Positions 1,528 through 64,000 of a DNA stretch of 64,000 nucleotides are shown piece by piece. Source of the DNA: Bacteroidales bacterium. Lineage in GTDB: Bacteria > Bacteroidota > Bacteroidia > Bacteroidales > WCHB1-69. Positions within the stretch are counted from its first letter, which is position 1; each line of letters begins with the position of its first letter. Both the position numbers and the translations under genes were made by a program. The notes under the pieces are model-generated. The model ran no database searches and was not told where the DNA came from. It saw nothing but the letters and a program-made list of their open reading frames with translations. The stretch lies in assembly GCA_017615795.1 (NCBI GenBank), contig JAFZZK010000029.1, forward strand, positions 25,646-89,645. Direction: 5' to 3'.

Positions 1528-4125
1528 ATGAACCCTAACAATTTGACAATCAAAACACAAGAGGTTATTTCCAACGCCCAGATGATTGCCATGCGCAATC
1601 AGAACCAGCAACTGGAACCCCTCCATATCCTCAAGTCTATGCTTGAGGTGGACGACAATGTGATCCCTTTTTTGCTGAAAAAGCAAGATTGTAACCCCAA
1701 GACTGTCGCCGCTGTGGTGGACCGCGAAATCGCGCGGCTGCCCAAAGTGACGGGTGGGGACCCCTACTTGGCCGGCAACACGCAAACAGCTTTGCAGAAG
1801 GCCATTATTTTCTGTCAGGACTCCGGTGACGAGTTCGTCTCTTTGGAGCATTTGCTCTATGGTGTTTTTTGCGCCAATGGCTCCGCATCCCAAATTCTCA
1901 AGGATGCAGGCATGACCGAAAAGGGCTTGAAGAATGCCATCCAGGAGTTGCACAAAGGCAGTAAAGTCACCTCTGCCTCCAATGAGGAGACCTACAACGC
2001 CCTCAACAAGTACGCCAAGAACCTCAATGAGATGGCACGTCAGGGCAAACTCGACCCCGTGATCGGGCGTGACGAGGAGATTCGCCGTGTGCTGCAAATT
2101 CTGTCGCGCCGTACCAAGAACAACCCCATCCTGATTGGCGAGGCCGGTGTCGGCAAGACAGCCATTGCCGAAGGCTTGGCCCAAAGATTGGTCAGTGGCG
2201 ACATTCCCGAGAACCTCAAGAGCAAGAAGCTTTACTCTCTTGACATGGGCGCACTTATCGCTGGTGCCAAATACAAAGGCGAGTTCGAGGAGCGTCTCAA
2301 GAGTGTCATCAACGAGGTGATTCACTCCAATGGTGAAATTATCCTGTTCATCGACGAGATTCACACGCTTGTGGGGGCGGGCGCGTCCGGCGAGGGCGCG
2401 ATGGATGCCGCAAACATCCTCAAGCCTGCTTTGGCGCGTGGCGAACTCCGGTCCATTGGCGCCACCACCCTTGACGAATATCAAAAGTATTTCGAGAAAG
2501 ACAAGGCCCTCGAACGTCGTTTCCAACCCGTCAAGATCGAGGAGCCCGACAAATATGCCGCCATTTCCATCCTTCGTGGCTTGAAGGAGCGTTACGAAAG
2601 CCACCATCAGGTCAAGATTCTCGACGAGGCCATTATCGCCGCCGTCGAGTTGTCGCAGCGTTACATCGGCGACCGCTTCTTGCCCGACAAGGCCATAGAC
2701 CTCATCGACGAGGCTGCCGCCAAACTCAAGCTCGAAATCAACTCCGTGCCGGAGGAACTGGATGAGGTGGAACACAAAATCAGCCAACTGGAGATCGAAC
2801 GCGAGGCCCTCAAACGCGAGAACGACACGGCCAAGGTGGAAGACCTTAGCCAGAAGATCGCCGAGTTGCAGGAAAAACGCAATGTTATTTCCACCAAATG
2901 GCGCAGCGAGAAGGAAATCATGGACAAGATCCAGCATTGCAAGGATGAAATCGAGGCTTACAAATTGGAAGCCACCAATGAGGAACGCCAGGGCAATTAC
3001 GGTCGTGTGGCGGAATTGCGCTACGGCCTCATCAAGAATGATGAGGATGAAATGGCCAAACTCCAGAAAGAACTGGAGGCGTTGCAGGGCGACGCGGCTA
3101 TGATCGACGAAAAGGTCGGCGCCGACGATGTCGCCGAGGTCGTGGCGCGTTGGACTGGCATTCCCGTGACCAAGATGATGCAGAGTGAGAAATCCAAGTT
3201 GCTGCACCTGGAAGAGGAACTCCACAAGCGTGTGGTGGGCCAGGACGAGGCCATAGGAGCCGTGTCCGACGCCATCCGCCGCAGTCGTGCCGGACTTCAG
3301 GATGCCAAGCGTCCCATTGGCTCGTTCATCTTTATGGGCACCACAGGTGTCGGCAAGACAGAACTTGCCAAGGCACTCGCCGAGTATTTGTTCAATACTG
3401 AAGATGCCATGATACGCTTCGATATGAGCGAGTTTCAGGAATCGTACTCCGTTTCCCGGCTCATTGGATCGCCTCCCGGCTATGTGGGCTATGACGAGGG
3501 CGGACAACTCACCGAAAAGGTGCGCCGCAAACCCTATTCCGTCATTCTCTTTGACGAAATTGAAAAAGCGCATCCCGACGTGTTCAATGTCTTGCTCCAA
3601 GTGCTCGACGACGGTCGGTTGACCGACAACAAGGGCAGAGTGGCCGACTTCAAAAACACCATCATCATCATGACCTCAAACCTCGGCTCCAACATTATCC
3701 AGGATAACTATTCCGACCGTGCCAACTACTCCGACCTTGAGGTGTTTGAACGTACCAAAACTGAAGTCACCGACTTGTTGAAGAAGACCTTGAAGCCTGA
3801 GTTCCTCAACCGTATCGATGAGATTGTGATGTTCCAGCCTCTCTCCAAACGTGAGATCAAGGAGATCATCAAGTTGCAACTCGGACAGCTCGAAACCCTG
3901 CTGGGCCAACGCAACATCAAGCTTGAGTTCAGTCGCTACGCCATGGACCTGCTGTTGGATCTGGGCTATGACCCGCTTTACGGAGCCCGACCGCTCAAGC
4001 GCGTGATACAGAAGATGATACTCAATGAACTCTCCAAGATCATCCTCGCCGAGGATATCGACCACGACTGCACCATCATGGTGGATTCCGTGGAGGACGG
4101 GAAGTTTGTGTTCTACAAGAAATAA
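1528..4125 (+). CDS. clpB: ATP-dependent disaggregase ClpB
   Basis: This 865-residue protein is a full-length Hsp100 chaperone that, with DnaK, threads aggregated proteins through its ring in the cytoplasm. Visible in order are the N-terminal Clp repeat domain (about 1-145), the first AAA module with Walker A GEAGVGKT (about 205-212) and pore loop [11 protein letters not shown], the long coiled-coil middle domain (about 400-530) that separates ClpB from ClpA/ClpC, the second AAA module with GTTGVGKT (about 604-611) and pore-loop region [13 protein letters not shown], and the C-terminal small domain. AGGAG lies about 10 nt before the ATG. It stands alone, with a terminator hairpin behind it. 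No heat-shock operator was recognised upstream. Confidence 0.97.
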
Positions 4126-5639: not shown

Positions 5640-5741
5640 ATAGTTATAATATGGTTTTCAACAGATTTTGAGCTAAAGTCTATACACTAATTTTTTTAAA
5701 AATCAAGTTGAAAACATTTTTTTTGTAAACTTTTTTTTGTT

Positions 5742-5749
5742 TATTTTTG
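5742..5749 (+). promoter_or_regulatory. -7 box upstream of dnaA
   Basis: TATTTTTG stands in an AT-rich spacer 75 nt before the dnaA ATG. No well-spaced -33 box was found; the nearest TTTG lies only 16 nt upstream. Confidence 0.5.
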
Positions 5750-5824
5750 CCATCTGGAAAAACGAATGGCTGCAAGGCCATAATTCGTTGAGAATGAGAA
5801 AAAATAAAAATTGTTACGAGTAAG

Positions 5825-7276
5825 ATGAGCGAAATTACGAAAGACTACACCAAAGTTTGGAACAAGTGCTTGGGGATGATACATGACATTGTGGAGGAGG
5901 ATGCGTACGAGACCTGGTTCCTCCCCATTGTGCCGGTTTCCTTGGAAGAGGATACGCTTGTGCTCCAGTTGCCGAGCCATCTTTTCTATGAGTTTTTGGA
6001 AGAACACTACGTCAATGTGCTGAAGAGTGTCATCAAGAAGGAGATCGGCCCCATGGCGAAGCTGAAATACAAGGTGATTATGGAACAACAGCCTGATCCT
6101 GCCCAGTCGCAGACCATCACGCTGCCGTCGCACAACCGCCCTGCCGTGAGCAACCCGCCATCCTTGGCCCCCATTGACGTGTACCAGACACCCAACCGCG
6201 ACATTCCCGACCCGTTTGTGCTGCCCGGCATCCAAAAGCATAAGATCCCCTCCAACCTGGTGGAAACGCTGACTTTCGACAACTACATCGAAGGCGATTG
6301 CAACCGCTTGGCGCGTTCCGCGGGCTGGGCCATCGCCAAGGCACCCGGACAGACGTCGTTCAACCCGCTTTTCATCTATTCCGACGTGGGGCTTGGAAAG
6401 ACGCACCTGGCAAACGCCATCGGTATCCAGACCAAGATCAACCATCCGGACAAGACGGTCGTCTATGTGAGCTGCGATACTTTCTACCAGCAATACGTGG
6501 AGGCGCTTCGCAACAAGAACATCAACGATTTTATATGGTTCTACCAGCAGTCTGTGGATATGCTGATTATCGACGATATTCAGTTTATCGCGGGCGGCAA
6601 GGGAAAGACCCAGGAGGCGTTTTTCCATATTTTCAACTCGTTGCACCAGCACAACAAGCAGATTATCATCACATCCGACAAGTCGCCGGTTGAGATCACG
6701 GGCTTCGAGCCGCGCCTGCTCAACCGTTTCAAATGGGGGCTTACGGCTGATTTGCAGGTGCCCGACCTGGAGACGCGCATCGCCATCATCAACAAGAAGC
6801 TGGAAAACAACGGCATCACCTTCCCCAAGGAGGTGGTGGAATACTTGGCCCTGCGCATCACATCCAACACCCGCGAGCTGGAAGGCGCCATGATCGCCAT
6901 CCTCGCGCAGGCCTCCCTCAACCATCGTGCTATCACGGTGGACTTGGCCAAGGAGATGGTCGACAAATATGTCAAGACCAATGCCAAGGAGATCTCCATC
7001 GAGTACATACAGAAGATCGTGTGCGACTATTTCAAGATCTCCGCAGAGGCCATCAATGCGCGGACTCGTCGCCGCGACATCGTGCAGGCACGTCAACTCA
7101 GCATGTATTTTGCCAAGAAATACACCAAGTTGCCCCTTACCATCATTGGCGCCTATTGCGGCAACAAGGACCATGCAACCGTGCTGCACGCCTGCCGGAC
7201 CATCAGCAACTTGTATGAAACCGACAAAAAAATGAAACTTTATGTGGATGATATCGACAAGAAGATGAAAATTTAG
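5825..7276 (+). CDS. dnaA: chromosomal replication initiator protein DnaA
   Basis: The 483-residue protein has all four DnaA domains: the N-terminal DnaB/self-interaction domain (about 1-85, with VWNKCL...YETWFLP), a variable linker, the AAA+ domain with Walker A GLGKTH (about 189-194) and Walker B MLIIDDIQF (about 245-253), and the C-terminal DNA-binding domain with TRRRDIVQARQ and GNKDHATVLHA, which reads DnaA boxes. It opens the replication origin and binds ATP. The stop is followed within 75 nt by the recJ promoter and gene. The AT-rich upstream spacer has no cluster of DnaA boxes, so this is not evidently the origin. Confidence 0.97.
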   Translation: MSEITKDYTKVWNKCLGMIHDIVEEDAYETWFLPIVPVSLEEDTLVLQLPSHLFYEFLEEHYVNVLKSVIKKEIGPMAKLKYKVIMEQQPDPAQSQTITLPSHNRPAVSNPPSLAPIDVYQTPNRDIPDPFVLPGIQKHKIPSNLVETLTFDNYIEGDCNRLARSAGWAIAKAPGQTSFNPLFIYSDVGLGKTHLANAIGIQTKINHPDKTVVYVSCDTFYQQYVEALRNKNINDFIWFYQQSVDMLIIDDIQFIAGGKGKTQEAFFHIFNSLHQHNKQIIITSDKSPVEITGFEPRLLNRFKWGLTADLQVPDLETRIAIINKKLENNGITFPKEVVEYLALRITSNTRELEGAMIAILAQASLNHRAITVDLAKEMVDKYVKTNAKEISIEYIQKIVCDYFKISAEAINARTRRRDIVQARQLSMYFAKKYTKLPLTIIGAYCGNKDHATVLHACRTISNLYETDKKMKLYVDDIDKKMKI

Positions 7277-55646: not shown

Positions 55647-55759
55647 GAGAGGCGGCGTGCCACAAACCCACGCGGCGCGGGGAAGGCTTTCCACGATGCA
55701 GGGAGCGCCCTCGCCGCAAAAGGGAGACGCCGGATAAAAGCGATGAGTGACGACCTCAT
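55647..55759. repeat. 112-bp palindromic repeat, copy A
   Basis: About 113 bp aligning with 57275-57386 at roughly 85% identity by eye, ending in the identical GCGATGAGTGACGACCTCAT. The core contains CGCGGCG...CGCCGC arms. Frames open through it on both strands give peptides of similar sequence in both copies, but I regard these as non-coding. Confidence 0.8.
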
Positions 55760-55866: not shown

Positions 55867-57000
55867 ATGATAGAACGCGCTTTAAAACAATTGGTCAGAC
55901 AGAGGATGTTTCGCGGAAAAATTGTAATACTCACGGGACCGCGACAAGTAGGTAAGACCACACTTCTTCGTATGTTGATGGACGAATCGGACACTAAAAC
56001 GCTTTTCTGGAATTGCGATGAACCCGATGTGAGGCAGAAACTTAACAGCCCAGCATCGACACAACTGAAAGCGGAGATTGGCGATGCAAAACTCATATTG
56101 ATAGACGAAGCACAGCGGGTTCTTAACATTGGCCTTACCTTGAAACTTTTGGTTGACAACTTTCCTGACAAACAGATCGTCGTTACGGGTTCCTCTGCAT
56201 TGGAACTTAACAACGCCACAAACGAACCATTGACAGGTAGAAAATTTGAATACAATATGCTGCCCTTGTCAGCTGAGGAACTTTTAGGTCATTATGGAAA
56301 AAACATTGAAGGGCGACTTTTGGGGCGGCGACTTGTTTATGGCTCATATCCCGATGTGGTGAATCTTGAGGGTGAGGAACGAGAGATTCTTACCAATCTG
56401 GCGGGAAGTTATTTATATAAGGATATTTTCGCATTTCAGGACGTTCGCAAACCCGAAATCATTGAACAACTCTTGCAGGCATTGGCCTTGCAATTGGGAA
56501 ACGAAGTCTCGTTCAACGAGCTGGGCAAACTTCTCGGACTGAACTCTCAAACAGTACAGCGATATATCGATTTGATGGAAAAAACATTTATCGTGTTTCA
56601 TTTGCGTTCATTCAGTCGGAATGTGCGCAACGAACTGAAAAAAAGCCGCAAGATATATTTTTGGGACAATGGCATACGCAATGCTATTCTCGGCGATTTC
56701 AAACCCTTGAATTTGCGGCAGGACACAGGTGCATTGTGGGAAAACTACCTTGTTGTGGAGCGGTTGAAGCACCATTCATATAGTCAGTTCTATGGAAAGA
56801 GTTATTTTTGGCGCACCCAGCAACAGCAGGAAATTGATTATTTAGAAGATGTTGACGGAATGCTACACACCTATGAGTTCAAATGGAGCAACACAAGGCA
56901 TCCGAAACTGACGGAGACATTTGCCAAAAATTACCCTGAACACACCTATGCTGTGATAAACCCAGACAACTATCAGGATTTTGTTGCTGGCAAGGTGTGA
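55867..57000 (+). CDS. AAA ATPase with DUF4143 domain
   Basis: The 377-residue protein has an AAA_14-type ATPase (Walker A GPRQVGKT, residues 24-31; Walker B LILIDEAQ, about 75-82; VVTGSSALEL sensor-like segment) and a C-terminal DUF4143 domain with SYLYKDIFAFQDVRK, a winged-helix part and a PD-(D/E)xK-like end (DYLEDVDGMLHTYEFKW). Such ATPases are frequent, variable accessory genes of anaerobes with unknown role. The gene is AT-richer than the genes before it, is bracketed by two copies of a 112-bp repeat, and is followed by a leftover C-terminus of a second family member. Confidence 0.85.
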   Translation: MIERALKQLVRQRMFRGKIVILTGPRQVGKTTLLRMLMDESDTKTLFWNCDEPDVRQKLNSPASTQLKAEIGDAKLILIDEAQRVLNIGLTLKLLVDNFPDKQIVVTGSSALELNNATNEPLTGRKFEYNMLPLSAEELLGHYGKNIEGRLLGRRLVYGSYPDVVNLEGEEREILTNLAGSYLYKDIFAFQDVRKPEIIEQLLQALALQLGNEVSFNELGKLLGLNSQTVQRYIDLMEKTFIVFHLRSFSRNVRNELKKSRKIYFWDNGIRNAILGDFKPLNLRQDTGALWENYLVVERLKHHSYSQFYGKSYFWRTQQQQEIDYLEDVDGMLHTYEFKWSNTRHPKLTETFAKNYPEHTYAVINPDNYQDFVAGKV

Positions 57001-57274: not shown

Positions 57275-57386
57275 GAGAGCGGCGCGCCACAAACCCTCGC
57301 GGCGCGGGGAAGACCTTCCACGATGCACAGAACGTGCTCGCCGCGAAAGGGAGACTACAAATAATAGCGATGAGTGACGACCTCAT
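57275..57386. repeat. 112-bp palindromic repeat, copy B
   Basis: Direct repeat of copy A in the same orientation. Arms TCGCGGCG (57297-57304) and CGCCGCGA (57339-57346) form a stem. It ends 5 bp before the stop codon of hsdR on the opposite strand. The remainder of the 57071-57390 gap is GC-rich non-coding sequence with no gene that I can support. Confidence 0.8.
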
Positions 57387-57390
57387 TGAC

Positions 57391-60300
57391 CTATAGTGTT
57401 TGCATATAATCCAAATTTCCTAACATTCGAGTGATGACGCTTCGGAAATCTGCTTTGAAGCCATCATTCTGCTGGTACTCCTTGTACAATGAATTGTCGC
57501 CCTTGCGTTTCTGTCGCATAATTCGGTCAATAATCTCATTCATTAGGGCATCCACAGCCTGTTGGTCGGGGTTGCCCACTACCAGCGACTTGTAGTCTTC
57601 GTCGTTTGCAACGGCTTGTGCTACGCTTACCAATTTCATCTTCTGGTCGTCAGGTGTGGCATTCCAACCATTAAACCAGCGGTTATTGAACTCCTTGAGA
57701 ATCTCATCCAACGGGTCTTTGGTCACACCCTCACCTCCAGCATTGACCATCTTCGCTTTCAGTGGGTCAATGGTGGCCTCCCCGGCATCCAGAGTGATAG
57801 GCTCGTTCAATGCGGTGCGACGAAGCCCGTAGGTGTTCAAATCCACCGAATCCAGCAGATCCTTCATACTGTCGATGTCCGGACCCGTGATGTGCAGGCT
57901 GGGAATGAGGTAACGCAGGAACCAGAACAGTTTCTCCCACTCTTTCACCTCAAAGGGCATGATGGCAGCCACTCGAGAATAGATTTTCACAAACTGCTTG
58001 CACTTCATCTTGAAATCTGCTTTGCCGTTCTCAGTCCACTCAATTTCCAAGTTGAACCGGTCGGCGGCAGCATCGATAATGGGTGCCCACTGGTCGGCCT
58101 CGGCACCGTGGATATATAAGTCAATGAAGCTGTTAACCTCTTCCATATCAAACACCCCAATTCCTATGATGGTGTTTTTCAGTTCGTGCAGGATGTTGAC
58201 ATCGGTGGCCTCCGACAGTGTGGTAGCCGTGTAGAAGGGGTCAAAGGAATCTTTAATATCCTCTTTCGTATTATAGAAATCAAGAATGAAGAGGTCTTCG
58301 CTCAGTTTGCCCAAATCGGGGGCGGAACGGTTCAGACGCGACAGGGCTTGGACCGCCAAAACGCCCGCCAGAGGCTTATCCACGTACATGGCACAGAGTT
58401 TGGGCTGGTCGAAGCCGGTCAGATACTTGTTAGCGACCACCAAGATGCGATAGTCATCAGTGTCGAACATCTCGGCCGTCTTGGAATCGGGGAAACCGTT
58501 CATGCCCGCTTCGGTGTATTGTATCCAGTAACCACTGCGTTCCTCAGCGGCTATGGCATACACTCCTCCCTGCTCGGTGGAATGGAGGGCGCAAGACTGA
58601 TGCTCAATCTTTTTCTCGCCGCTAAAGGCGATTAAAATCTTGTAGGGAAGATTCCGTTCCATGGCTAACTTGTTCAATGCCTGATAATAAAGGATGGCGC
58701 ATTCGATGTCTTTGGTCACCACCATGGCTTTGGCCTTGCCTTTCAGCTTATGACTGCGGAATATCTTCGCATCGAAATGAGTCAAAATCACGTCAGCCTT
58801 TGCGGCAATGGTTTTCGGATCACGCTCTACTGCGCCCCGAAGTTTCTTCTGTGCCCGCTCGTTGTTGTATTCGGGATTGTCTTCAATGCTCTTGGTGAGC
58901 TCGTAGTAACTCTTGTAAGTCGTGTAGTTGGTCAGCACATCAAGGATGAAACCCTCTTCGATGGCCTGTTTCATGCTGTAGAGATGAAACGGGTGGAACT
59001 TGCCTTCCGTATCCATGCTGCCGAAACGTTCCAATGTCTCTCTTTTCGGGGTGGCAGTGAAAGCGAAATAGGAGCAGTTGGTGCTCATCTTGCGGTCTTT
59101 CATCAACTTTTCCAACAGTGCATCAGTGTCAGCCCCGTCCGTATCATCATCTTTTTGCAATGATGCGTTCAGCTTGTCGGCAGCAATCCCGCTCTGACTG
59201 CTGTGAGCCTCGTCAATAATTACGGCGAAGTTACGGTCGCTCATATTATTGATGGTATCGCACATGAAGGGGAATTTCTGTATAGTCGTGATGATAATAC
59301 GTTTTCCATCTTCAATATGCTGTCTCAGCCCTGTCTTTGGAATCCTGTCTTTGCTGTCTGCACAATCGGCGTGAGCCACTATTTTTGAGGCCTTTCCGAA
59401 GGTCCGTATGTTGTCTGTTATCTGTTTGTCCAGCAACTGGCGGTCTGTCACCACGATGACGGAGTTGAAGAGGGGAGCGTCCATTGCCTTGGCTCTGACC
59501 GCATCCATCGAGTTGGGACAGGTCTTGATGAGTTTGTAAGCCAGCCAAGTGAGCGAGTTGGACTTTCCCGAACCTGCCGAATGTTCGATGAGATAGGTCT
59601 TTCCCACACCTGCTTCAGCCACATCGTGCACCAATTTATTTACCACATCCAGCTGGTGGTAACGCGGAAAGATTAATTTCTTGGCGTTCTTCATGATGTG
59701 CGGCACCTTTTTCTGTGTCTTGGCCTCGTCGTAGTCGAAGCAGACGTAGTTCATGATGATGTCGGCCACGGTGTCCTTTTGCAGGATATGCTCCCACATA
59801 TAGGAGGTCTTGTAGCCACCGTTGGTGTTTACGGGATTGCCCGCACCCTGCCCATTGGGCAGACCTTGGTTGAAGGGCATGAAATAGGTCTTGTTGAGGT
59901 TGAGGCGTGTGGTGAAAAACACCTCATCCTTGTCCATCGTGAAATGTGCCAGACAGCGACCGAAGTTCAGCAATGGCTCTTTTGGGTTGCGATCTGTTGA
60001 TTTGTATTGCTTCTGTCCGTCGTATTTGGCGGTTTGATGTGTCCAAGGGTTCTTCAGTTCGAAAGTGAAAAGCGGCAAACCGTTCACGAACAGTACCATG
60101 TCGATTTCCAAAGCGGGGTTGGCCACAGAGAAGGTTTGCTGGCGTGTGAGGGAGAACTGGTTTTGGGCATATTTCTGTTTCGAAGCCTCGCTATCGGCTG
60201 CTGACGGTTTGGGATAGAACAGCGAAATATGGATATTATCAACATCCACGCCTTCGCGCAGCACCTTGATGACGCCGAATGTCTCCACCTCTTTTGCAAT

Positions 60301-60591
60301 GCGCTTGGGCAGTTCGCTCTTGAGGTCTTTGCCCTTGTATTCATTGAGCGTTTCCTTTTGCGAAGTCTCAAGGAAAGCCCACAGCCGCCGCAGATCAATA
60401 GCCAATTTCTTGTCCATGTCCATGGGCAGGCCCCAATAGTATTGTTGCGCGTTGGGCGACTGGGCTTCCACATCGTTATGCCCGTTGGCCGTGCGTTCCT
60501 CATGGGTGTTGCCCACTAAAGCTCTTTCTATGAGGGCCTCAAAGGCTTGTTCGTTGGTTTGGGATACGTTCATCGTTACTTTTAAATTCAC
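57391..60591 (-). CDS. hsdR: type I restriction enzyme, R subunit
   Basis: The ~1066-residue protein is a full-length HsdR. The nuclease domain shows Asp164 in EIDMVLFVNG and Glu178-x-Lys180 in FTFELKNP, followed by a Gln-x3-Tyr-type segment. The SF2 translocase has Walker A HSAGSGKSNSL (about 338-348) and DEAH in IIDEAHSSQSG (about 456), and the C-terminal helical part binds the methylase core. It cuts DNA after ATP-driven translocation. GTG 60591 overlaps the preceding stop (GTGA), supporting coupled translation; ATG 60573 is the alternative. No hsdM or hsdS lies in the window; they may be beyond the right edge. Confidence 0.93.
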   Translation of the reverse strand: MNLKVTMNVSQTNEQAFEALIERALVGNTHEERTANGHNDVEAQSPNAQQYYWGLPMDMDKKLAIDLRRLWAFLETSQKETLNEYKGKDLKSELPKRIAKEVETFGVIKVLREGVDVDNIHISLFYPKPSAADSEASKQKYAQNQFSLTRQQTFSVANPALEIDMVLFVNGLPLFTFELKNPWTHQTAKYDGQKQYKSTDRNPKEPLLNFGRCLAHFTMDKDEVFFTTRLNLNKTYFMPFNQGLPNGQGAGNPVNTNGGYKTSYMWEHILQKDTVADIIMNYVCFDYDEAKTQKKVPHIMKNAKKLIFPRYHQLDVVNKLVHDVAEAGVGKTYLIEHSAGSGKSNSLTWLAYKLIKTCPNSMDAVRAKAMDAPLFNSVIVVTDRQLLDKQITDNIRTFGKASKIVAHADCADSKDRIPKTGLRQHIEDGKRIIITTIQKFPFMCDTINNMSDRNFAVIIDEAHSSQSGIAADKLNASLQKDDDTDGADTDALLEKLMKDRKMSTNCSYFAFTATPKRETLERFGSMDTEGKFHPFHLYSMKQAIEEGFILDVLTNYTTYKSYYELTKSIEDNPEYNNERAQKKLRGAVERDPKTIAAKADVILTHFDAKIFRSHKLKGKAKAMVVTKDIECAILYYQALNKLAMERNLPYKILIAFSGEKKIEHQSCALHSTEQGGVYAIAAEERSGYWIQYTEAGMNGFPDSKTAEMFDTDDYRILVVANKYLTGFDQPKLCAMYVDKPLAGVLAVQALSRLNRSAPDLGKLSEDLFILDFYNTKEDIKDSFDPFYTATTLSEATDVNILHELKNTIIGIGVFDMEEVNSFIDLYIHGAEADQWAPIIDAAADRFNLEIEWTENGKADFKMKCKQFVKIYSRVAAIMPFEVKEWEKLFWFLRYLIPSLHITGPDIDSMKDLLDSVDLNTYGLRRTALNEPITLDAGEATIDPLKAKMVNAGGEGVTKDPLDEILKEFNNRWFNGWNATPDDQKMKLVSVAQAVANDEDYKSLVVGNPDQQAVDALMNEIIDRIMRQKRKGDNSLYKEYQQNDGFKADFRSVITRMLGNLDYMQTL

Positions 60592-61172
60592 CTACAATAA
60601 GGGATGGGACGAAATTCTTTATAACACGCATGTGTATTAACGACGCTCAAATCAAGATTCTCGACATCTTTATCTTTTGTGATTCTTTTATTGCAACGAT
60701 CCTCCTTTATGATAAGTTTGCGGTATTTGATTTGACGAACATCGAATTCAGGAAAATCATTTTCTTCTTTTATCCTTTCTGCTGATTTCAAAATGAAATC
60801 AAAAAAGGTACATGATGCGTCTATCTGTTTCTCTGCTCCACTTGTAACACCGCGCTTCATTTCCAGAAAAAACACAAACAATCCATTAATGTGCTGTACC
60901 AACAAAATATAGTCACAAAAGCTGTTTAATCCTTCTGGTGCCGTAGGTTCATCTCTTCTCTGATTGAAAAAAGGGAACAGCTTGTTCACATTTTTGTCAG
61001 GGGTGTTGAAACAATATAGTTTCATATCCAAAATAGACCGAGTATCATTTTTAATGTCCACACGTTGTTCATCATGTAACAAATCGGAAGGCTCAACCAT
61101 TGTCAATGCTCTATCCCCCTCTTGCAAGAAGTCCGAATTAAGAATCCATTTTAAATAATCAATTTCTTGCAT
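60588..61172 (-). CDS. small protein with D...ExK nuclease-like signature
   Basis: I do not recognise a named family. The 194-residue protein has no signal or membrane segment. Around residues 85-108 it reads FCDYILLVQHINGLFVFFLEMK, here split as Asp87, then after a hydrophobic strand Glu104-x-Lys106, the spacing expected for the core of a PD-(D/E)xK nuclease fold; a polar helix with GAEKQIDASCTFFDFIL follows as in those folds. It lies 7 nt behind an SMC/ABC-like ATPase gene and overlaps hsdR by 4 nt, so it is made together with both. An effector role in a defence module is my inference. Confidence 0.6.
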   Translation of the reverse strand: MQEIDYLKWILNSDFLQEGDRALTMVEPSDLLHDEQRVDIKNDTRSILDMKLYCFNTPDKNVNKLFPFFNQRRDEPTAPEGLNSFCDYILLVQHINGLFVFFLEMKRGVTSGAEKQIDASCTFFDFILKSAERIKEENDFPEFDVRQIKYRKLIIKEDRCNKRITKDKDVENLDLSVVNTHACYKEFRPIPYCR

Positions 61173-61179
61173 AATTCAA

Positions 61180-62463
61180 TTATTCAATCGGGTGGTCGTA
61201 TTTTAAAACTTCATAGAAGGTGTTCGTCACATCATTTTGTTGGTTAATGGCATCATCAATGGACGGCATGTTGAACCCGTACCTATCTACGGCAAGAGGC
61301 TCCACGATTACTTTTCCTTTCGCATTTTTTTGGAACAAGAATGGTGCGAACTTGTCTTGGGAAAGGCAAAGACTTTTATCATACCCCATTTTAGCCATAA
61401 TCTCGTCACCAGCCTTGTTTAAGCCATCCGCCATGATCATATTGTTGATTTCACGAATGATGTAATCGCTATGGGTGCTGACGACGAGCCTGAGACCTGC
61501 ATTGATCATCTTGACGAAAATCTTAGCCAAAAGAATCTGATTCTTTGGGTGAAGGTTTAGTTCAGGCTCATCCACAAACAGAACATTATATTGTCCAGCA
61601 GTATGACGTAAATAAAACACTAACGGTGCCAACGTTTTGACCGCTGACGATGACTCATTGTAACCAAGTTCAGTATTATTGGAAACATGATACAAAACCT
61701 CTCCATCCTCTGAAACAGTGAGGTTGCCATGCAAAATCATCTGTTCTATTTCATCTGCGAATTCCGTATAATCCGATTCTTTTTTCCTTTGGTTCACCAC
61801 ATCTGCAGCATCCGCCAATCCATCCGCAATCGGTTTAGGATAACGGGCATTCAACCGTTCTTCCGGATTCCTAAGCCTGCCAACAGACAATTCTTTGTTG
61901 AAGGTATAAATACCACTGCGTTCGGCAGTAAACATTTGAGCCCCAATAATACCATCAAAATACAATGCGGTAACTAATAAAGCTTGCACAATAGGCTGGT
62001 GTTCTTCTTTTTTCCACCGCAATTGATATTCATACGAGTTGGCTTTTTTTACAATGTGATTGGATCCAACAATTACCGCTTTCTCATATAATTCTTTTTC
62101 CCATTCTTCTTTTGTGGTTGCAATTTCACATTTGAATGAATTTGTAGTAATATTCAAATTCATTGAATCAACCACCATTTTTTTACGATGTTTAAGAAAA
62201 TCTATCAACAGGTCATATAACTTAGCTGCATTAACTTCTCCATCAACGCCACTGTTAAGTCTTTTAGTAATATTCAATTCTGCTTTTTCAAAGTGAAAAT
62301 CTTTATTCAAAAGCACCTTACGCAATTCCAAAATCAGAGAATAAAGGAATGTTGCCGCGTATGTTTTTCCCGTCCCGTTGTCACCCGCAAAGAGGATGAA
62401 CGGTTGGGACATATCAATTTCCATTGAATCAATAACACCAAGATTGGAAATTCTCAATTTCAT
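61180..62463 (-). CDS. SMC/ABC-like AAA ATPase (OLD-type head), defence-associated
   Basis: The 427-residue protein has Walker A GDNGTGKT at residues 27-34 right after an N-terminal MKLRISNLGVIDSMEIDMSQ strand, a charged helical insertion (about 45-230), a signature-like ELGYNESSSAVKTLAPL (about 263-279), Walker B NVLFVDEPELNLHP (about 291-304) and the H-loop VVSTHSDYIIREIN. This is the pattern of AAA_15/AAA_21 ATPases that pair with nucleases in systems such as Septu, PARIS, Gabija-like or OLD. No TOPRIM domain follows in the same chain. The effector is presumably the next gene, 7 nt downstream. The gene is AT-rich relative to the core genome. Confidence 0.8.
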   Translation of the reverse strand: MKLRISNLGVIDSMEIDMSQPFILFAGDNGTGKTYAATFLYSLILELRKVLLNKDFHFEKAELNITKRLNSGVDGEVNAAKLYDLLIDFLKHRKKMVVDSMNLNITTNSFKCEIATTKEEWEKELYEKAVIVGSNHIVKKANSYEYQLRWKKEEHQPIVQALLVTALYFDGIIGAQMFTAERSGIYTFNKELSVGRLRNPEERLNARYPKPIADGLADAADVVNQRKKESDYTEFADEIEQMILHGNLTVSEDGEVLYHVSNNTELGYNESSSAVKTLAPLVFYLRHTAGQYNVLFVDEPELNLHPKNQILLAKIFVKMINAGLRLVVSTHSDYIIREINNMIMADGLNKAGDEIMAKMGYDKSLCLSQDKFAPFLFQKNAKGKVIVEPLAVDRYGFNMPSIDDAINQQNDVTNTFYEVLKYDHPIE

Positions 62464-62491: not shown

Positions 62492-62499
62492 CAAAAATA
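62492..62499 (-). promoter_or_regulatory. -7 box of the ATPase gene
   Basis: TATTTTTG on the minus strand, 28 nt before the ATPase ATG and inside the 73-nt gap after the upstream gene; the ATPase/nuclease-like/hsdR genes may therefore form their own transcript. Confidence 0.5.
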
Positions 62500-62536: not shown

Positions 62537-64000
62537 TCAACTTTCCAAATCTGCAATTTTAGCTTCATCATCCAAATGATAAGCCTCATTTTTATACTCT
62601 TTTATTAAATCATCAAAAATCTTTGTCATTCTCGGATAAAGCAGTTTCGTCTTTTCTCTATACTTTTCAAATTTCGATACAATTGAGCGTTCCTGATTTC
62701 CGCCTTCGTTATAGGCACGACTGGTGATACCTCTACTATTGTAGATTCGAGTGCTGATATGCTGGTCAACGACATCATTGTCCAACTCTTTTACTAGTTC
62801 ACAAAGTGCTTGAGGCGGGTAGTTTTCATCACGAGGAATGTCACCTAATATGTCACCCACTACATAGTCGATTGCCCTGACTCTTTTTCTTTCTTTCGCC
62901 AAACGGTATAGAGATTCAATATACTGCCTCATTCTCTCGCCGTCAAATGCTCCATCTTCATTATTGAATAAGACAATAGGACGCCCAAAATACAATATAT
63001 GGAAAGCGTTTTCTGCCAGAAGCCTCTTATTATCTTTTGCACCACATTCCAATTGCTCCACTTCACCATCATCAGGACGATATGCTAATTCCACGAGCTG
63101 AATCATCAATTCCGGATCACGCGACAATTCTTTTGTAAACCGTAACAGGGACACATCCATCTGATATTCAAGGACTCTATACAATAGGAACTCCACAACT
63201 ATCAGTGTCTTGATTACTTCTGGATTTTCAGATTTATCCAACTCTTTCAACAAGGTTGATAGATAAAAGTGATCCATTTGCGAAATCATCTTGACGTCAT
63301 ATGTAATACACCCATAAATAACCTTAACTATTTCTACATCACTTATCTGAATGTTTGTTCTATGATGGTATATAACATGAATTGCATCATAATATCTCGC
63401 TACTTTTACCAACTCATGAATAACTTCAACAGCATCACTCATCTCAATATAACCAACCTCTACCGATTCCCAATATTTCTGTTTGATTGAATCTCCAAAA
63501 CTTGTCGCCACATCTGCCAACCCTTTTATATATCTTGGAGCACAAAGGAGTACCAATAAATCCTTGTCTTTTTCCAGGGTTCGCTTAGCTAGTTTTTGAT
63601 ATTCAATCGTGTCGCTATAACATAATACGCTAAAATATGACCTCGCAAAACTCTCGCTTATCTCTTTACTCTTATACTTTTGGCAAACATCATCATACAG
63701 TTCTCTTCCATAAATAGAGACTAAACTTTCTGCTAAACTCTCTGGACATTTCACCAAATCCACAAAGTTCCAAATGCCTTCCTTCCCCTGTGAAGCAATG
63801 ATTTCCCGAAGTGCGTTAGTTCTAATTTCCAACAGCTCTTTTCTATTCTTCTCAAAGTCGAATCCATTTTCCCAATCATGCGGCAACTGAACATAAATAG
63901 ACTCAAACAACCACGCATTCTTATGTAATACATCTTTAGGCTCAAGTTCATTAAGCAAGTTTTGATATGGCTCCAATTCTGCTTCAGACAAAGCCCACTG
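62537..64000 (-). CDS. large, probably helical protein of unknown function, 5' end outside the window
   Basis: The frame is open from the right edge for 487 codons to the stop at 62537, with no start codon needed inside; the N-terminus is missing. The visible part is rich in Leu, Glu, Lys and Tyr with helix-helix periodicity (for example KNRKELLEIRTNALREII and ALCELVKELDNDVVDQHI) and has no transmembrane segment or clear catalytic motif; a HEAT/TPR-like solenoid is plausible. It may be the C-terminal half of a large NTPase or scaffold. Base composition is AT-rich like the ATPase gene behind it, suggesting joint acquisition. I cannot name the family. Confidence 0.65.
   Translation of the reverse strand, partial: QWALSEAELEPYQNLLNELEPKDVLHKNAWLFESIYVQLPHDWENGFDFEKNRKELLEIRTNALREIIASQGKEGIWNFVDLVKCPESLAESLVSIYGRELYDDVCQKYKSKEISESFARSYFSVLCYSDTIEYQKLAKRTLEKDKDLLVLLCAPRYIKGLADVATSFGDSIKQKYWESVEVGYIEMSDAVEVIHELVKVARYYDAIHVIYHHRTNIQISDVEIVKVIYGCITYDVKMISQMDHFYLSTLLKELDKSENPEVIKTLIVVEFLLYRVLEYQMDVSLLRFTKELSRDPELMIQLVELAYRPDDGEVEQLECGAKDNKRLLAENAFHILYFGRPIVLFNNEDGAFDGERMRQYIESLYRLAKERKRVRAIDYVVGDILGDIPRDENYPPQALCELVKELDNDVVDQHISTRIYNSRGITSRAYNEGGNQERSIVSKFEKYREKTKLLYPRMTKIFDDLIKEYKNEAYHLDDEAKIADLES

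Follow-up and report, generated by a model that had tools for sequence, protein, structure and literature searches.

Among the described antiphage systems that couple an ATPase to a small nuclease-type protein, PD-T4-4 and WonAB come closest to the locus studied here. PD-T4-4 (Vassallo et al. 2022, PMC9519451), reported from a defence-enriched locus of an integrative and conjugative element (ICE)-like element in Escherichia coli, has two genes, the ATPase first, and is listed with the Pfam family PF13175 and a PD(D/E)XK nuclease domain (PMC10952713). WonAB from Vibrio cholerae WASA-1 joins an OLD-type ATP-binding cassette (OLD-ABC) ATPase to a PD-(D/E)xK protein; overproduced WonB is reported to be toxic only when WonA is present and ATP-competent, leaving genomic DNA intact as translation stops, and its authors suggest rRNA or tRNA as the target (PMC12137116). 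In a 2026 survey of bacteriophage exclusion (BREX), OLD-ABC ATPases that partner PD-(D/E)XK or other nucleases are presented as probable backup effectors (PMC12839542). Defence genes are also housed in type I restriction operons: DarTG2 and an unnamed pair lie between hsdS and hsdR (PMC12255303), TgvAB is embedded in such an operon (PMC11411939) and PrrC is linked to type Ic hsd loci (PMC3874168). Here we analyse two genes, A and B, that precede hsdR in a 64,000-nucleotide stretch of a Bacteroidales genome (assembly GCA_017615795.1, contig JAFZZK010000029.1; hereafter the window). The pair is ordinary as to kind, a PD-T4-4-type module, and the middle of its ATPase gene, which some relatives appear from their sequences to have swapped, is a lead worth testing.

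A PD-T4-4-type pair adjoins hsdR

Gene A (61180–62463, minus strand; 427 amino acids (aa), ATG start) encodes an OLD-type ABC ATPase of the PD-T4-4_A family, our proposed sensor. After a gap of 7 nucleotides (nt), on the same strand, comes gene B (60588–61172, minus strand; 194 aa, ATG start), a PD-(D/E)xK-type protein of the PD-T4-4_B family and the proposed effector nuclease (D87, E104, K106, Q116). B overlaps by 4 nt, at a GTGA junction, the type I restriction subunit gene hsdR that directly follows it (57391–60591, minus strand; 1,066 aa, GTG start). A sequence-only reading of the window had proposed a two-gene ATPase/nuclease-type module of the defence kind adjoining hsdR, and the coordinates, motifs and spacing bear it out.

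A matches Pfam AAA_15 (E = 2.3e-21), which is the PF13175 of PD-T4-4, and AAA_21 (1.4e-12). Among PADLOC models, PD-T4-4_A (PDLC04033) matches almost end to end (E = 5.7e-64; residues 1–417 of 427 on positions 1–455 of 460), with weaker matches to PDC-M47 (154.5 bits), AriA (8.8e-24) and PtuA (2.6e-11, best among the matches listed). The motifs GDNGTGKT (residues 27–34), ESSS (270–273), DEPE (298–301) and STHSD (329–333) are present, and across an alignment of 22 A proteins no change occurs at G27, N29 and K33 of Walker A, at R182, or at D298-E299-P300-E301, H305 and T330-H331-S332-D333, which take in the Walker B and H-loop residues. Substitutions K34A, R182A, E300A and H333A in WonA are each reported to abolish defence (PMC12137116), and K33, R182, E299 and H331 of A sit in the corresponding motifs, matched by motif and number rather than by alignment to WonA. 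The label 'SMC/ABC-like', given to A from the sequence, can thus be narrowed to OLD-type ABC ATPase on the strength of matches to AriA, PtuA, Old and GajA together with the description of WonAB (PMC12137116). Whole-gene ratios of nonsynonymous to synonymous substitution (dN/dS) for A are 0.09–0.19.

B matches PD-T4-4_B (PDLC04037; E = 2.2e-10, 38.6 bits, PADLOC's own threshold not applied) over residues 4–167 on model positions 6–157 of 190, more strongly than PDC-M47 (3.8e-4); its Pfam match to HSDR_N is weak and below the cut-off (0.0099). The protein carries D87 and E104-x-K106. The D-x16-E-x-K spacing is by itself not above chance, being present in 10% of 2,000 shuffles of B, and the looser D-x(14–18)-[ED]-x-K occurs in 7 of 44 window open reading frames of 150–260 aa. 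We count the motif as real because it is conserved across relatives: D87 and K106 are kept in all 23, C86 and Q116 in at least 90%, and position 104 is acidic in 22 of 23 (alignment read by eye), with asparagine in locus L066. B is under purifying selection (dN/dS 0.10–0.23 in 15 of 21 pairs, those with computable synonymous divergence). Its structural model has, at medium confidence, the strand order of a nuclease fold, not of the non-nuclease fold that would have told against the proposal; a PD-(D/E)xK core proper (helix–strand–strand–strand–helix–strand, with D on strand 2 and E-x-K on strand 3) is tentative for B. As the sequence-only reading had stated, B lacks a Toprim, DUF4435, HNH or RloB match, both in Pfam and PADLOC searches and in the family tables of its 23 relatives.

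These features place the pair among described systems. In PARIS, an OLD-type ATPase likewise works with a separate effector, but the AriA match of A is far weaker than its PD-T4-4_A match and B has no AriB match. Septu (PtuA/PtuB) and the PtuAB of retron Ec78 share the plan of an ATPase and a small nuclease, whereas B has no PtuB match by the same searches and tables. In PrrC a single protein combines an ABC ATPase with an anticodon-nuclease domain; here the two genes encode distinct proteins, and no PrrC family appears for A in Pfam or NCBIfam. DarTG2, TgvAB and PrrC are alike in being unrelated defence genes or pairs housed in type I operons, DarTG2 in the same hsdS–hsdR slot, but their proteins are not those of A and B. 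The PADLOC candidate PDC-M47 offers an ATPase and a small partner that match, yet the PD-T4-4 models outscore it for both proteins; no paper naming it appeared in the literature searched. WonB, compared by description only, has 16.1 kDa and a tested lysine at K71 (PMC12137116), where B has K106.

PD-T4-4_A and PD-T4-4_B also rank first for A and B of three related loci (L002, L006, L012), for A of L011, and for five more pairs from an E. coli plasmid, a Klebsiella pneumoniae plasmid, a Vibrio phage and two viral contigs. Because the window proteins and the pairs of relatives all match PD-T4-4 best, the pair belongs to a known kind. The locus scores as a known system, with PD-T4-4 models matching both proteins, an outcome set beforehand as speaking against the suggestion that the combination may be undescribed; that suggestion is not supported, and the observation behind it is real. 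The window pair differs from PD-T4-4, as represented by the PADLOC models rather than by the E. coli founder, in its shorter A, its diverged B and its home in a type I restriction operon.

A and B travel together

The two gene families co-occur in other genomes. Starting from B, we found an A-type gene directly before it in 13 of 13 loci: six genome contigs, another six genomes from a set of 100 relatives, and a single one out of 345 from the phylum, the window itself excluded. In two of these A is not whole, being cut by the contig end in L010 (genome G039) and split into two frames in L009 (genome G020). The split A (L009:359–1488) misses about 50 residues, roughly 243–290, through loss or assembly error, and its B and hsdR are open. 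Starting from A, at scores above 150 bits, B adjoined A in 13 of 13 loci, comprising five viral loci, five plasmid or phage sites and three second copies (G093, G068, G074); a contig-end piece of A (L065) was dropped. Model E-values here were computed per locus over its reading frames, and some of these sequences helped build the models. The five viral loci come from a set of 21, the other 16 of which had A at 52 bits or less or no match (L035), and no B below E = 0.02; genome G094 likewise held an A at 115 bits and no B. Among the 100 relatives, B occurs in seven genomes and A in eight, the window's genome counted.

Matches came from 36 plasmid and 3 phage records; the five sites inspected among them all carry B. 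The pair's hosts include plasmids of Enterobacteriaceae, a cyanobacterium and a Bernardetia, as well as a Peduoviridae Vibrio phage in which it sits between the CI repressor and a DNA breaking-rejoining enzyme.

The pair occupies a cassette slot in the hsd operon

The neighbour hsdR matches Pfam HSDR_N (1.8e-12) and SWI2_SNF2 (3.1e-25) and PADLOC REase_I (2.8e-42), and its nuclease residues D164, E178 and K180 are present in an N-terminal alignment. In L002–L005 and L007 the gene order is HsdM, HsdS, an insert, A, B, HsdR; HsdM is whole in L007, represented only by its end in L002, L004 and L005, and absent from L003, which begins at HsdS, and L005 has two extra genes between HsdM and HsdS. 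The insert consists of two of three genes, encoding ApeA with a HEPN domain, a PIN_8 protein, or a 1,233-aa protein without known family.

Because loci found through B are biased, we also searched by hsdR, recovering 13 of 100 relatives (E limit 1e-100), 3 of 40 genomes of the genus (1e-180), 4 of 104 of the family (1e-200) and 9 of 393 of the order (1e-250); these samples overlap and each count includes the window's genome. Among hsdR genes of at least 78% identity, A and B lie directly upstream in four of five (the window, G020, G039 and G644, the last with identities equal to those of L007 and possibly the same genome). The fifth, on contig C53 of G460, has in the slot a 340-aa gene without Pfam family (L070:5854–6876). 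None of 15 readable loci with hsdR at 35–68% identity has the pair. At these loci the slot holds GmrSD (L074), a protein combining HATPase and DUF4062 domains (L046), RmuC (L049) or an ApeA-like gene (L051), and hsdS stands directly before hsdR in L055, L075, L077 and L078. With occupants before hsdR so varied, the hsdS–hsdR interval is a cassette slot, and A and B are its passengers in this lineage.

A promoter-like box accompanies the pair

Bacteroidetes promoters have the −7 consensus TAnnTTTG. A promoter-like box, TATTTTTG (62492–62499, minus strand), lies 36 nt upstream of the A start, and TAT[TC]TTTG recurs at −36 or −37 of A in eight of eight loci (the window, L002–L007 and L009). These loci are closely related rather than independent; given how often TANNTTTG occurs in the window, 0.046 boxes are expected per 120 nt and strand. 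The box persists even in L005, L006 and L007, whose more distant upstream sequence seems unrelated. L006 is a decayed restriction operon that retained the pair: remnants of hsdS and hsdR (3507–3716 and 5685–5947) flank an A and a B that are still open, and the pair can therefore stand alone, although the decay may be recent.

The middle of the ATPase gene appears exchanged in some relatives

In all six pairs among L002–L005, fourfold-degenerate sites differ by 8–21% across the ends of A (residues 1–36 and 351–427) and by 55–68% across residues 37–300 (permutation p = 0.0002–0.0006); hsdR differs by 18–24%. Raw synonymous values per segment show the same step. Along A, nucleotide identity in the four of these six pairs scanned is 0.90–0.96 around the start, 0.52–0.86 over residues ~36–320 and 0.92–0.96 beyond. 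High synonymous divergence of the middle points to replaced DNA and not only to relaxed or positive selection; the affected segment is the one between the Walker A and Walker B motifs. In L007, by comparison, A and B are diverged nearly throughout and hsdR is close. Trees of A, B and hsdR reject one another by the approximately unbiased (AU) test in six of six comparisons (p at most 0.0134).

Several points weaken this result. Over all 21 pairs, uncorrected p is below 0.05 in only 9; the other 12 are 11 that involve L007 or the window, where the gene ends have diverged too, and the pair of L003 with L006. The tree test has six sequences only, and for the A alignment against the B tree AU rejects (0.0134) where the Shimodaira–Hasegawa test does not (0.099). 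The borders 37, 300 and 351 were chosen after seeing the divergence data, with residues 301–350 left out. We nevertheless read these patterns as some relatives appearing to have swapped the middle of the ATPase gene. WonA and related ATPases are reported to differ in insert regions and C-terminal extensions (PMC12137116). As a tentative idea, which we hold to be rather improbable as a whole, the ATPase of this abortive system could be an exchangeable specificity subunit like HsdS of the same operon: recombination at its conserved ends would swap residues ~37–300 among strains, and a fixed effector and restriction backbone would gain new infection sensors. The matches listed for literature on hsd-embedded systems and on exchange of alleles among such ATPases included no description of this lineage and none of swapped segments.

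The natural alleles, which share gene ends and genomic site and differ in the replaced middle, are a ready experiment. Should chimeras change phage range, the sensor would be mapped without phage escape mutants, which the authors of the WonAB report could not obtain (PMC12137116).

A proposed second line of defence and its alternatives

We consider it probable that A and B form a PD-T4-4-type antiphage module that belongs, with WonAB, to the broader group pairing OLD-ABC ATPases with PD-(D/E)xK-type nucleases, and that it has an RNA-directed, abortive action as a second line within the hsd operon. Family membership, pairing, conserved residues, location, the box and gene shuffling are the basis; activation of B by A, the abortive outcome and the stop of translation are carried over from WonAB. 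By analogy, A would be a dimeric ABC ATPase that holds or positions B and senses a sign of infection, probably through the variable region between Walker A and the signature motif. The trigger would cause an ATP-dependent change in A that releases B to cut cellular nucleic acid, most likely RNA on which translation depends, and an infected cell would halt before producing phage. Transcription from the pair's own promoter-like box may continue into hsdR; with such a box and possible read-through, restriction would act first and the pair would be a second, suicidal line. The pair adds a member to the modules housed in type I restriction operons. Two of the insert companions are RNase-type by domain (ApeA with HEPN, and PIN), in keeping with a second line that arrests the cell; the GmrSD and RmuC genes at other loci do not point in this direction.

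The same data bear on other explanations. B might instead act on DNA, cutting that of the phage directly as a restriction-like effector licensed by A. HSDR_N is the commonest Pfam echo of the B family (found in 4 of 23 members with E no higher than 1; best 3.8e-05) and many structural neighbours of the B model are restriction enzymes, but a fold does not settle the substrate and WonB, the best-studied relative, spares genomic DNA and stops translation; we hold this to be rather unlikely. Somewhat less likely still, the pair could guard its own restriction enzyme, as PrrC does in an hsd operon or PARIS with Ocr, the switch being the Hsd complex or the blocking of that complex by an anti-restriction protein of a phage. 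The fixed site directly before hsdR, the overlapping gene ends and the recurrence beside close hsdR genes suit such a guard, as does the report that PrrC is silenced by a type Ic restriction–modification protein and activated by an anti-restriction peptide (PMC3874168). Against it, 18 distinct distant A–B loci (of only 2–11 kb) have no neighbour like the window hsdR at E up to 1e-5, L006 keeps the pair beside mere hsd remnants, and G460 has a near hsdR without the pair.

That the pair is an undescribed system apart from PD-T4-4 and WonAB seems improbable. In a tree of 22 A rows the window clade (four rows) sits on a long stem of 2.32, the B score is weak, and A is shorter than the aligned A proteins outside the clade (~450–490 aa). 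Yet one named system, with its genes in this order, is matched by A over nearly the full length and by B as well, and in the tree the clade falls among further pairs of the same order, within a seven-row group (support 100/98, with a long-branch warning from the program) whose remaining rows come from the same genus and order. Very improbable, finally, is that the pair belongs to the type I enzyme as accessory or regulatory subunits rather than being a system of its own: operon position and overlap alone favour this view, whereas the two genes are found on small plasmids and in a phage with no hsd genes listed alongside, and four loci run from hsdS directly to hsdR. The PD-T4-4-type second-line module thus remains the reading that we prefer.

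Neighbouring features

Upstream of A, the C-terminal 487 residues of the large insert protein (62537–64000, minus strand) are cut by the end of the contig (C9), which is also the window end. Full relatives lie at L002:2925–6626, L003:2942–6643 and L004:2947–6648 (1,233 aa each; 53–54% identity to the window part) and at L071:6652–10422 (1,256 aa; 61%). No Pfam match of the protein passes the cut-off (the window part reaches E = 0.038 at best, and the L002 and L003 copies have no match); there is no PADLOC match, and the L002 copy has no PDB match either. In L071 (G020) a Fic protein stands between HsdM and HsdS, and a DUF2971 protein and the large-protein relative follow HsdS.

On the other side, an AAA_14/DUF4143 ATPase gene (55867–57000, plus strand) converges with hsdR and matches the PADLOC candidate PDC-S01 (E = 4.9e-161). 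It is flanked by a 108-nt direct repeat (55652–55759 and 57279–57386, plus strand; 86% identical), and a search of the 87%-complete genome gave no further copy at E = 0.001 or below. These repeats may be cassette borders.
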